This document shows positions 789 through 14,586 of a DNA stretch of 64,000 bases, in pieces. A program made the translations under genes and the position numbers. Below the pieces are notes generated by a model, which saw only the letters and a list, made by a program, of their open reading frames with translations, had not been told where the DNA came from and made no database searches. Each line of letters opens with the position of its first letter. Within the stretch, counting starts at the first letter, position 1. Source of the DNA: Sphingomonas carotinifaciens (lineage in GTDB: Bacteria > Pseudomonadota > Alphaproteobacteria > Sphingomonadales > Sphingomonadaceae); the NCBI RefSeq assembly GCF_009789535.1, contig NZ_WSUT01000005.1, forward strand, positions 558,001 through 622,000, in the 5' to 3' direction.

Positions 789-792
<4 letters not shown>
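418..792 (-). CDS. fliE: Flagellar hook-basal body protein FliE
   Basis: FliE is the small periplasmic adaptor between the MS-ring and the proximal rod. The 124-residue product has an Ala/Gln-rich N-terminal half and the conserved C-terminal half with FADTLNEAVKSVNDSQ, then ARQQASVGFEATLQVRNKL and a terminal AYKDIMSMPV. Length and C-terminus are normal for the family. Its start codon overlaps the stop codon of the upstream sigma-54 regulator (ATGA), and fliF begins one base after its stop. The three genes are therefore read as one unit towards the left edge. Confidence 0.95.
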
Positions 793-2066
<1,274 letters not shown>

Positions 2067-2295: not shown

Positions 2296-2364
2296 TCCAC
2301 TTGGCGGCTCGGTGATCCGATGGGGATCGGAAAGGTTCGCCGAGCAAGAGATGGAGTTTTCGAC

Positions 2365-3216
2365 ATGACCGTTATTGCCAGCAACATCAGCGCGCTGCGC
2401 GCCACCGCCGCTTCGACCTCCGCACAGAACGCGCTCGGCAGCTCGATGCAGCGCCTGTCCACCGGCAAGCGCATCAACTCGGCCAAGGACGATGCCGCCG
2501 GCCTCGCCATCTCGGCCTCGATGACCGCGTCGATCAAGGGCATGGCGCAGGGCATCCGCAACGCGAACGACGGCATCTCGATGGCGCAGACCGCCGAAGG
2601 CGCGCTCGATGAGGTGAGCAACATGCTCCAGCGTATGCGCGAACTGAAGGTTCAGTCGCAGAACGGGACCTATTCGGACGATGACAAGGCAAACATCACC
2701 GCGGAGCAGACCGCTCTCGCCGAACAGATCAGCTCGGTCGTCCAGAACACGCAGTTCAACGGCACCGCGCTGTTTACTGGTCTCGACAAGAGCATCCAGA
2801 CCGGCGCAACGAGCAACGATACGGTCAGCATCAAGATGCGCGACCTGACGGCTGCCGCCGCCGGAACGGGTGCCACGGCAACCGGCTCGGCTTTGAGCGC
2901 CGTTATCGATTTCGCTCCAACAGGCACGGCCACTGCTCTCAAGGCCGATACCCTTGCCGGCTATGACGCGGCAATCAAGGACGTCGCCAATGTTCGCGCC
3001 GGTCTCGGCGCCACGCAGAACCGCCTCCAGTCGGCGGTGAACAACGCCACCTCGAACCTGACCAACCTGTCCGAAGCCCGCAGCCGCATCGAGGACACCG
3101 ACTTCTCGGAAGAAACGACCGCACTCGCCAAGGCACAGATCCTCAGCCAGGCATCGACCGCAATGCTCAGCCAGGCGAACCAGTCGCAGCAGGGCGTGCT
3201 GAAGCTGCTCGGCTAA
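2365..3216 (+). CDS. Flagellin (first of two tandem copies)
   Basis: Flagellin is exported through the flagellar secretion channel and polymerises into the filament. The 283-residue product has a conserved N-terminal D0/D1 part ([17 protein letters not shown], then [19 protein letters not shown] and [21 protein letters not shown]). The central region (about 140-205) is short and Thr/Ala-rich and replaces large D2/D3 domains. The C-terminal D1/D0 part carries [20 protein letters not shown] and ends QGVLKLLG. The start is set by the ribosome site around 2347-2356 and by alignment with the second copy. A strong terminator follows. It is closely related to the gene at 3409 in both terminal domains and differs mainly in the middle. 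Confidence 0.96.
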
Positions 3217-12473: not shown

Positions 12474-13097
12474 ATGCTCGAACATCTTCCCGCCTGGCTC
12501 GGCAAGGCTCTCGGCACCGTCCGCGCCGGAGCCGACGGATTGATGATCGCCCGGCCCGACCTGGGTCGCGGTTTCGACACGCTGTCGCTCACCAGCCCCG
12601 CCTTTGCCGATGGGGGCCGCCTGCCGCCACGCTTCACCGCGGATGGCGAAGGCGTGTCGCCGCCGCTCGTCTGGGGCGATCCGCCGGCGGGCACCGCCCA
12701 ACTGGCCCTGATCGTCGAGGATGCGGACGCGCCGACGCCGCAGCCGCTGGTCCATGCCATCGTTTGGGCGCTGCCGCCCGGTGCCGGTCATCTGGAGGAG
12801 GGCGCGATCGTCGCCGATGCCGCGGGCACGACCGATGGCGGCGATGTCGGGCGCAATTCCTATCTGCGGGAGGGCTGGCTGCCGCCCGATCCGCCGTCGG
12901 GGCATGGCGAGCACCGCTATGTCTTCCAACTGTTCGCGCTTGGCGACGATGTGGCGGATCCCGGCGATACGCCCGGGCGCGGTGCGATACTGGATGCGAT
13001 GGTCGGCCATGTGCTGGCGGCCGGGGTCCTCGTCGGCACCTATTCGCGCCAGGAGGAAGCGCCGGTGGGTCCGGTTGGCGCGGTGGCGCCGGGCTGA
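12474..13097 (+). CDS. YbhB/YbcL family (PEBP-like) protein
   Basis: This 207-residue protein has the phosphatidylethanolamine-binding-protein fold: [18 protein letters not shown], then [18 protein letters not shown] (the DPDAP-type ligand loop) and [15 protein letters not shown]. The bacterial family has no settled function. There is no signal peptide, so it is probably cytoplasmic. AGGAGA lies just upstream of the ATG at 12474. The gene follows the DUF1176-like lipoprotein gene closely and is convergent with the two microprotein genes. Confidence 0.88.
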
Positions 13098-13120: not shown

Positions 13121-13213
13121 TCAGCCGATCATCAGCTGGGTCTGTCCGGCGATCAGGAGGACGGTGGTGCTGAACGCGGCAAAGCCGATCAGCAAGCTGC
13201 GGGTGATGGTCAT
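13121..13213 (-). CDS. Hydrophobic microprotein 2 (30 aa), unknown
   Basis: A 30-codon reading frame encodes MTITRSLLIGFAAFSTTVLL followed by a short polar end. It is one hydrophobic helix with a positive charge near the N-terminus, typical of a single-pass membrane peptide. AAGGAA lies 8 bases before the ATG. It follows the 35-codon gene at 13240 by 26 bases and is probably its operon partner behind the sigma-54 promoter at 13407. I recognise no family. A short type-I-toxin-like peptide is a possible alternative. Short length means it could be chance, but the ribosome site and the tandem arrangement argue otherwise. Confidence 0.5.
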   Translation of the reverse strand: MTITRSLLIGFAAFSTTVLLIAGQTQLMIG

Positions 13214-13239
13214 CACGATGGTTCCTTTGGCCGGCCGGA

Positions 13240-13347
13240 TCAGGCGATCGGAACGACGGGAACGGCGGCGCTGATCGCGATGGCGGCGAACACGAGCGCA
13301 CCGGCGACCGAGGCGATCTGGTGGCGAAGCGTGGAGAGCTGAAACAT
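13240..13347 (-). CDS. Hydrophobic microprotein 1 (35 aa), unknown
   Basis: A 35-codon frame has an N-terminal polar, basic stretch (MFQLSTLRHQ) and one Ala/Val/Ile-rich transmembrane helix (about 12-33). AAGGAC lies upstream of the ATG with suitable spacing. It is the first gene after a near-consensus -24/-12 promoter centred about 65 bases upstream. No homologue family is known to me. Inner-membrane insertion is inferred from hydrophobicity only. Confidence 0.55.
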   Translation of the reverse strand: MFQLSTLRHQIASVAGALVFAAIAISAAVPVVPIA

Positions 13348-13406
13348 TGGTCTTGTCCTTGGGTTTGCCGATCGAAGGACCATCCGACGATCGATACCCA
13401 AGGCTT

Positions 13407-13423
13407 TGCAGAACCCGTGCCAA
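13407..13423 (-). promoter_or_regulatory. Sigma-54 (-24/-12) promoter of the microprotein operon
   Basis: On the minus strand the sequence reads TTGGCACGGGTTCTGCA. The invariant GG (13421-13420) and GC (13409-13408) are exactly 10 bases apart, and TGGCACG-N4-CTGCA matches the consensus TGGCACG-N4-TTGCA at all but one position. A start near 13396 would give a leader of roughly 50 bases to the 35-codon gene. The sigma-54 activator at 789 shows that the genome uses this sigma factor. Confidence 0.7.
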
Positions 13424-13542
13424 GTACCGAAATCCACGGATTTCAGCCGATTTCCCGAAACCTGCCTGTCGCTATTGGCATAATCCGCCAATGGCCATCG
13501 GCATTTCCCGCCAAGGATCAGCGGAAAAATCAGGCGTGCGCG

Positions 13543-14586
13543 TCAGGCCGCGCAGACCTGATCGCGACCCTGGCTTTTGGCGGTGTAGAGAAGCTGGTCG
13601 GCGCGCACGAAAGCCCCCTCGTGGCTGTCGTCTGCGCGAATCGCGGTAACCCCGGCGGAGAAGGTGACCTGTCCAATGCCTTCCTCCGTGTCCCGCACCC
13701 GAAAGCGCCGCGCCGCCACGTCGGCGCGTGCTGAGTCGAGCAGGGCCGCCGCGTCGGTCAGCGATACGCCGCCGAGCAGGATCGCGAACTCCTCGCCGCC
13801 GTGGCGGCTGACCAGATGCCCCGTGCACGCCTTGGCCAGCATCTGCCCGATCACGCTCAACACCCGGTCGCCGACATGATGGCCATGGCGATCGTTGATC
13901 AGCTTGAACCGGTCGACGTCGCACACCGCGATGCAACAGGGTTCCTCCACCTCGCGGCACGCGGCGAACGCTTCCTCGAACGCCAGCCGATTCGCCAGGC
14001 CGGTCAGCGGATCGCGCCGCGCCGTCTCGCGCGCCTCGGCCAGCTTGGCGCGCAGCGCATCGGCCTCCGCCGTCGCCTGGGCCAGCCGCACCTCGGTATC
14101 GCGAATCCGTGCGATCATCCCGCCGGTCAGCGACGCGATCTGGTCCAGCCCGGCAACCGTCGGCTGGCGCGTAATCGCCGCCGCACTCTCCTCCAGATCA
14201 CGCCCGAAGCCCTGCGTCACCGCGTGCATCACCCGCACCGTTTCCGCAAACCCCTCCACCTGGCTCTGCGTCGCCGCCACCAATGCATCCGACCGCGCCT
14301 CGGGCGAGGGTTCGAACGTCCGCACCGGGGCCGGTGCGCTCTGCACGGGCGGGCCGTTCACCACCACGCCGCCCAGCCGGATCACGTCGTCATGCGCCAG
14401 CCGCACGCCTCCGTCGGTCAACGACGCCACCGCACGCGCGGTCGGCCCGTCGGGGTCCGTCATCAGGGCATGGACGAAACTGTAATGCGCCGGGTCCGGA
14501 CTCAACCGGTGATCCGCCAGGAACTGGCCGATCCGATCGAACAGGTCTTCCTTTTCGATCATGTCAGACCGCTTGGCACGAAACAT
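13543..14586 (-). CDS. GGDEF-domain diguanylate cyclase
   Basis: This 347-residue cytoplasmic protein should make cyclic di-GMP from two GTP. Residues 1-150 are an unclassified N-terminal region. A coiled-coil-like helix (about 160-190) leads into a GGDEF domain beginning RRDPLTGLANR. The active-site loop is GGEEF at 263-267, so catalysis is plausible. The product-inhibition RxxD motif expected just before it is absent (CTGH is at that position). No membrane segment is seen. GGGAGG lies 5 bases before the ATG at 14586. The gene lies just upstream of the sigma-54 microprotein operon on the same strand, separated by about 120 bases. Confidence 0.9.
   Translation of the reverse strand: MFRAKRSDMIEKEDLFDRIGQFLADHRLSPDPAHYSFVHALMTDPDGPTARAVASLTDGGVRLAHDDVIRLGGVVVNGPPVQSAPAPVRTFEPSPEARSDALVAATQSQVEGFAETVRVMHAVTQGFGRDLEESAAAITRQPTVAGLDQIASLTGGMIARIRDTEVRLAQATAEADALRAKLAEARETARRDPLTGLANRLAFEEAFAACREVEEPCCIAVCDVDRFKLINDRHGHHVGDRVLSVIGQMLAKACTGHLVSRHGGEEFAILLGGVSLTDAAALLDSARADVAARRFRVRDTEEGIGQVTFSAGVTAIRADDSHEGAFVRADQLLYTAKSQGRDQVCAA

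Follow-up and report, generated by a model that had tools for sequence, protein, structure and literature searches.

A compact operon of two microprotein genes, ORF1 and ORF2, lies wholly on the minus strand of the 64-kb stretch of Sphingomonas carotinifaciens DNA analysed here (hereafter the window), between a diguanylate cyclase gene and a convergent gene of the phosphatidylethanolamine-binding-protein (PEBP) family, both of which are outside it (Table 1). An initial annotation, in which the strand was left unstated, had called it an operon driven by sigma-54 and encoding two hydrophobic microproteins of no known family, and that outline stands: box and frames are conserved among relatives, both frames are under purifying selection, and neither peptide has a Pfam match (E≤1) or an NCBIfam match (E≤0.1). 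Its details were also accurate, in that the box has the exact GG-N10-GC spacing and one mismatch to TGGCACG-N4-TTGCA, and the tandem frames of 35 and 30 codons each follow a ribosome site, purine-rich in both cases. The cyclase, on the same strand, ends upstream of the operon. The C-terminal tail of the cyclase, recognized by its motifs, is upstream in 75 of the 82 loci compared below, and a PEBP-family neighbour, recognized in the same way, is present in at least 44 of them, a lower bound since some stretches end early. Across the whole window, neither a tRNA nor an Rfam match reaching the gathering score was found.

Table 1. Features of the two-microprotein operon and its neighbours in the window, in the order of transcription.
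Feature	Position	Strand	Basis
GGDEF diguanylate cyclase, upstream neighbour, outside operon	13543..14586	-	PF00990, 2.2e-31
Distal PspF-type upstream activating site (predicted), TTGGCGGGAAATGCCGAT	13497..13514	-	psp-trained matrix, 14.8 bits
Proximal PspF-type upstream activating site (predicted), TTGGCGGATTATGCCAAT	13474..13491	-	psp-trained matrix, 22.9 bits
Sigma-54 -24/-12 promoter (predicted), TTGGCACGGGTTCTGCA, expected +1 at 13396	13407..13423	-	Motif and conserved box
Predicted hairpin, 5' end of transcript	13368..13394	-	Fold and family covariation
ORF1, 35-aa microprotein, MFQLSTLRHQIASVAGALVFAAIAISAAVPVVPIA	13240..13347	-	Shine-Dalgarno AAGGA at 13356-13360; profile A1; dN/dS
ORF2, 30-aa microprotein, MTITRSLLIGFAAFSTTVLLIAGQTQLMIG	13121..13213	-	Shine-Dalgarno AAAGGAA at 13222-13228; profile A2; dN/dS
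PEBP-family gene, convergent neighbour, outside operon	12474..13097	+	PF01161, 4.7e-31

Both frames evolve as coding sequence under purifying selection. The in-frame dN/dS is 0.41 in each (pooled pairs 75–99% alike; 337 pairs for ORF1 and 113 for ORF2), against out-of-frame values of 0.91 and 2.41 for ORF1 and 1.32 and 1.73 for ORF2. ORF1 is 35 or 36 codons long in all 82 loci, and two prolines near its C-terminus are invariant in the 21 sequences of its profile (A1). Each peptide does contain the one hydrophobic stretch originally ascribed to it, with best 17-residue Kyte-Doolittle means of 2.46 and 2.14, from which an inner-membrane location is predicted. All 82 ORF1 sequences have R, K or H ahead of the hydrophobic core and lack R, K, D and E beyond it, and therefore, by the positive-inside rule for the orientation of membrane helices, the N-terminus is predicted to lie inside and the C-terminus outside. 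ORF2, sought with a profile (A2) of 16 seeds taken from these loci, follows ORF1 in 66 of the 82 and was not found in the other 16; hence, the pair is not obligatory. In one locus (L023, genome G016) ORF1 is duplicated in tandem behind a single promoter, with one ORF2 after the two copies, and two further genomes (G316 and G381) likewise have two ORF1 matches within 250 nt. Profile comparison gave a probability of 17% (P 0.0015, hhalign) for ORF1 against the leader peptide of the phage-shock (psp) operon, 22% (P about 0.001) for ORF1 against ORF2, and 0.8% for ORF2 against the psp leader peptide; we claim no homology among the three, because hydrophobic helices can give such P values by chance.

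The operon is near-universal in the genus Sphingomonas. Profile A1 matches 176 of 201 genomes at E≤0.1, some of them weakly, and a profile including diverged members recovers 17 of the 20 non-hits listed (25 in all) at E≤1.4e-4, of which 16 carry the box; the latter profile drew on named records that are possibly of the same species as those rescued. Across the order, ORF1 is matched at E≤0.001 in 38 of 296 genomes and six of 79 genera, and the sister-genus set used below comprises nine loci out of 13 matching genomes. There was no ORF1 match in phage or plasmid collections. Named genomes were also searched by the box together with the start of the leader. Eighty of the 109 resulting stretches were read and 44 matched A1, five being longer UrcA-like proteins, so that 39 of the 80 carry ORF1 and at least 33 of these ORF2; carriers include S. 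lenta, S. metalli, S. corticis, S. trueperi, S. leidyi and S. liriopis. The plant-leaf isolates Sphingomonas sp. Leaf339 and Leaf343 each carry ORF1 as well as ORF2. Of the 36 loci that remain, many have psp-leader-like peptides or other genes, or are matches by chance. In Sandarakinorhabdus and in metagenome-assembled genomes of Sphingomonadales and other alphaproteobacteria, the box and a GGCATCGG leader stand before lookalike proteins of about 105–115 residues (L229, L255, L268, L274, L280, L295, L298 and L302); the one tested, from L229, belongs to the UrcA family (TIGR04433). In three further loci (L239, L271 and L296) a sigma-54 box and a leader hairpin of another kind stand ahead of a protein resembling, by eye, the TROVE/Ro type, and these promoters are perhaps controlled by RtcR.

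Detailed comparison was made on 82 loci, comprising 22 of the first 30 together with 60 from the upper part of the profile A1 matches listed, a set that favours close relatives because it was drawn from upper matches. The 22 were picked before the upstream sequence of the relatives was examined. The eight dropped (L041, L042, L044 and L046–L050) match at E 0.2 or worse; two that were kept (L043 and L045) are as weak, and one of those dropped (L046) is a true member by a later profile search. The initial annotation had proposed that box and frames be sought in sphingomonad relatives, where both proved to be conserved. All 22 hand-read loci, the window among them, have a sigma-54-type box ahead of ORF1, and a scripted search placed TGGCA-N7-TGC 66–77 nt ahead of the ORF1 start in 81 of the 82, again including the window; in the remaining locus, L023, it lies ahead of the first of the tandem copies. 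With the diverged genus loci (16 of 17, at 72–78 nt) and the sister genera (nine of nine, at 61–98 nt, one of them at 98 nt), the box is present in 107 of the 108 loci inspected, window included, at 61–98 and mostly 66–77 nt. When 81 boxes are stacked (L023, with its short upstream part, being left out), T, G, G, C, A and T, G, C are invariant, although the rows were picked by that very pattern; columns outside the selection pattern are also conserved (C in 78, G in 78, A in 78 and A in 71 of 81). The bare motif is not above chance in the genome, where the exact form TGGCAY-N6-TGCA occurs 13 times against 10 for the reversed pattern, and it is by its conservation across relatives that the box stands above chance.

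Upstream of the box are sequences that resemble the activating sites of the psp operon. We trained an 18-column matrix only on psp-operon promoters, namely those of the best 30 PspF matches among the 201 genomes, of which 29 have a clear site; the site begins 91–92 nt ahead of the box in 28 of the 30. Over the 150 nt preceding the box, the matrix finds a site at p≤0.05, relative to dinucleotide shuffles, in 78 of the 82 micro-operons, with a mean best score of 13.9 bits against 0.17 in the shuffles; the four loci that miss this level count against control by PspF. The best forward-strand site begins 67–69 or 90–92 nt ahead of the TGG in 71 of the 82 loci. In the window, scanned on both strands, the two highest-scoring positions are the two sites of this promoter, which begin 69 and 92 nt ahead of the TGG, in tandem and 23 bp apart. 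They are the only positions in the 64 kb to reach 14 bits, and the maximum over 847 other overlapping 150-nt segments is 13.5. None of 200 shuffles scores as high as the proximal site, whose score is still 22.9 when the genome's own psp promoter and that of its nearest relative are left out of the matrix.

Control promoters in the same genome behave differently: two sigma-54 promoters before PII-like genes (judged by eye) score 0.0 and -3.4 bits and nine other box matches score at most 9.0, against 24.0 for the promoter beside pspF. With the threshold set at the 95% level of segments in the window (7.2 bits), sites are found at 14 of the 17 diverged loci but at just five of the nine sister-genus loci. 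A combined pattern of site and box gives 30 matches in 37 genomes, several of which look like chance, against four when reversed; it misses this genome's psp promoter because the site there lies further out. The activating site also resembles what we take to be the E. coli PspF consensus, a likeness that we set aside as evidence. We strongly infer from these promoter sequences that the operon belongs to the PspF regulon. Another sigma-54 box of the same genome (C5:1678136; L058 and L075) lies ahead of a gene whose 89-residue product looks secreted; a 5' hairpin is visible by eye and the PspF-type site is weak, at 9.0 bits. This promoter is possibly a third PspF target.

The proteins of the phage-shock response are encoded elsewhere in the genome. 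PspF scores 483.4 bits against TIGR02974 (cut-off 443.55), and 400.4 against a second PspF model, NF008622, which is below the cut-off of 529. PspB and PspC exceed the cut-offs of TIGR02976 and TIGR02978, and the first 141 residues of PspA, the part scanned, score 200.5 bits relative to a cut-off of 242.95 that applies to the whole protein. The pspF gene is divergent from a box that is followed by a 48-codon peptide, pspA, pspB and pspC. This psp operon is at C5:1905287 on the minus strand (L074), pspA, pspB and pspC following the micropeptide, and by eye a conserved, hydrophobic micropeptide of 43–51 residues comes first in 29 of 30 psp loci of the genus (L076–L105). PspF is present in 281 of 296 genomes of the order, and a PspF-type match at E≤1e-60 occurs in all 201 genomes of the genus, including two incomplete ones (G007 and G012) in which the best match, at about 1e-64 to 1e-67, may come from a different activator. 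With PspF this widespread, its co-occurrence with ORF1 carries no statistical power.

The initial annotation had also brought in IHF, and here the family and the window differ. In the 52 nt that precede the box, 38 of the 82 loci have an IHF-like site with no more than one mismatch, against 2.9 expected from a plain base shuffle (11 perfect against 0.4, and 27 with one mismatch against 2.5), whereas the window's own copy has no good site, the best having two mismatches.

Downstream of the box, the expected transcription start falls at a conserved (G)GCATCGGC; a short stem, for example CCGGATGGTCCGG, comes next. Among 72 non-redundant leaders, left after removal of those with three or fewer differences as near-identical, a stem of four pairs forms in 88.2% of cells, and compensatory changes are seen in all four pairs; both sides have changed in 29 cells, against 7.0 in shuffles, and in 36 of 500 shuffles all four pairs likewise show a both-side change. 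When the partner strand is slid by one to three columns all scores drop, except that two counts (pairs with a both-side change, and pair types) tie at +1. The covariation and the sliding test thus favour an RNA hairpin over a DNA operator as the nature of the conserved leader element. Taken alone, the window leader folds no better than its shuffles (z -0.41). By eye, psp leaders look similar to that of the micro-operon.

We weighed this regulatory picture against other sources of control. The operon could be driven by the FlbD/FleQ-like activator encoded in the window itself (789–2066, minus strand), its peptides then regulating flagella or motility, which was one of the roles originally suggested. 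That activator had been described as receiver-less and beside fliE; it has no match to the receiver part of the FlbD model, and it lies beside a flagellin gene (2320–3213, plus strand). The presence of activator and flagellin gene in the same window speaks for a flagellar role, as might the lowered motility caused by PspA or PspG fusions in an E. coli pspF deletion, reported in the accessible text of PMC2763126, although the latter would fit control by PspF as well. We regard a flagellar role as very improbable, given that the sites upstream are of psp type, that nothing else in the window, the flagellin gene included, reaches 14 bits, and that the activator, while FlbD-like in its AAA+ and C-terminal parts, scores only 314.8 against an FlbD cut-off of 750. 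The sigma-54 activator domain is matched at ten places in the genome, in eight cases at E≤1e-22, and some other member of this set, NtrC- or NtrX-like for example, might use the promoter; that is improbable too, since the matrix finds no sites at the PII-like promoters and separates them from the promoter beside pspF.

Other alternatives concern what the operon makes. Peptides of this size with one hydrophobic helix could be membrane peptides resembling type I toxins, or secreted signal peptides, in place of stress effectors, and their charged N-terminus, hydrophobic core and Ala/Pro end have the layout of a signal peptide. A toxin had been among the original suggestions, and nothing in the sequence evidence was found to point to one. 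The operon is near-universal in the genus and keeps the same cyclase ahead of it in most loci, ORF1 has no phage or plasmid match and the window holds no Rfam family, all of which make a toxin or secreted signal unlikely. The covariation of the hairpin, changed on both sides in many more cells than in shuffles, would suit a short leader transcript whose product is the RNA itself and not the peptides. Against this, the dN/dS is far lower in frame than out of frame in both ORFs and the length of ORF1 is held to 35 or 36 codons throughout, and we give such an RNA product very little credence.

The nearest parallels come from enterobacteria. According to the accessible parts of PMC2763126 and PMC3709507, the PspF regulon of E. 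coli consists of pspABCDE and pspG, and the latter reports that pspA has two activating sites and the unlinked pspG one, with IHF assisting PspF. Like PspG (PMC2763126 and PMC3709507, as far as accessible), the microproteins would be small inner-membrane products of an unlinked promoter dependent on PspF and sigma-54, here as read from sequence. PspG, however, has two predicted membrane helices with both ends in the cytoplasm (PMC2763126, accessible text), whereas each peptide here has one hydrophobic stretch, and the micro-operon has two activating sites and two peptides where the pspG promoter has one site. The operon shares with the psp operon the activator-site motif, the -24/-12 box, a leader that by eye is hairpin-like and a first gene for a hydrophobic micropeptide, but it is unlinked and without a psp gene. 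A likeness by description extends to E. coli YohP, one of a group of membrane proteins typically of fewer than 50 residues and up-regulated under unfavourable conditions (PMC12719787, accessible text), from which the operon differs in its proposed control by PspF. The Psp response is widespread, its classical systems being those of E. coli, Mycobacterium and Bacillus (PMC11237479, accessible text); a term search of the accessible main text of two Psp surveys (PMC9239133 and PMC11237479) returned no word beginning 'sphingomon'. We found no title on this operon in the open-licence literature on Sphingomonas with PspF, PspA or the rpoN regulon, and no open-licence paper joining sigma-54, small proteins and Sphingomonadaceae. 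Judged by family models, the peptides do not appear to be members of the PspG family: each has one hydrophobic stretch, and neither matches the Pfam and NCBIfam libraries, which presumably contain a PspG model. By analogy, the micro-operon would occupy the place of pspG in the regulatory plan.

We think it highly probable that these genes form a satellite operon, under PspF and sigma-54, of the envelope-stress response known as phage shock (Psp), encoding two single-span inner-membrane miniproteins; among the roles raised at the outset, the envelope one fits this reading. In E. coli, inner-membrane stress frees the activator PspF from PspA. PspF released from PspA in the same manner would bind the two tandem sites, aided in many relatives by IHF bending, and open sigma-54 RNA polymerase at the promoter (13407–13423). 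The short mRNA would begin with the hairpin, which probably shields it or sets its output, and would yield the two peptides, each predicted to span the inner membrane as a single helix whose positively charged end stays in the cytoplasm. More speculatively, they may act in a membrane-protective arm of the response, by packing into the stressed bilayer or by tuning PspA, PspB or PspC; a membrane-effector role is plausible.

A wider proposition, which is possible but which we hold to be doubtful, is that sphingomonads rely mainly on microproteins for their phage-shock response, namely the leader peptide of the psp operon and two more from a near-universal second promoter, the three families being membrane effectors or feedback ligands of PspB and PspC. 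If so, a systematic survey of frames shorter than about 50 codons would be needed to know what the Psp response is. A conserved arm of two microproteins with a promoter of its own, small enough to be missed readily by gene finders, would offer a direct test of the role of this response in the alpha-proteobacteria, and the operon may serve as a clean model for single-helix membrane peptides made under stress.
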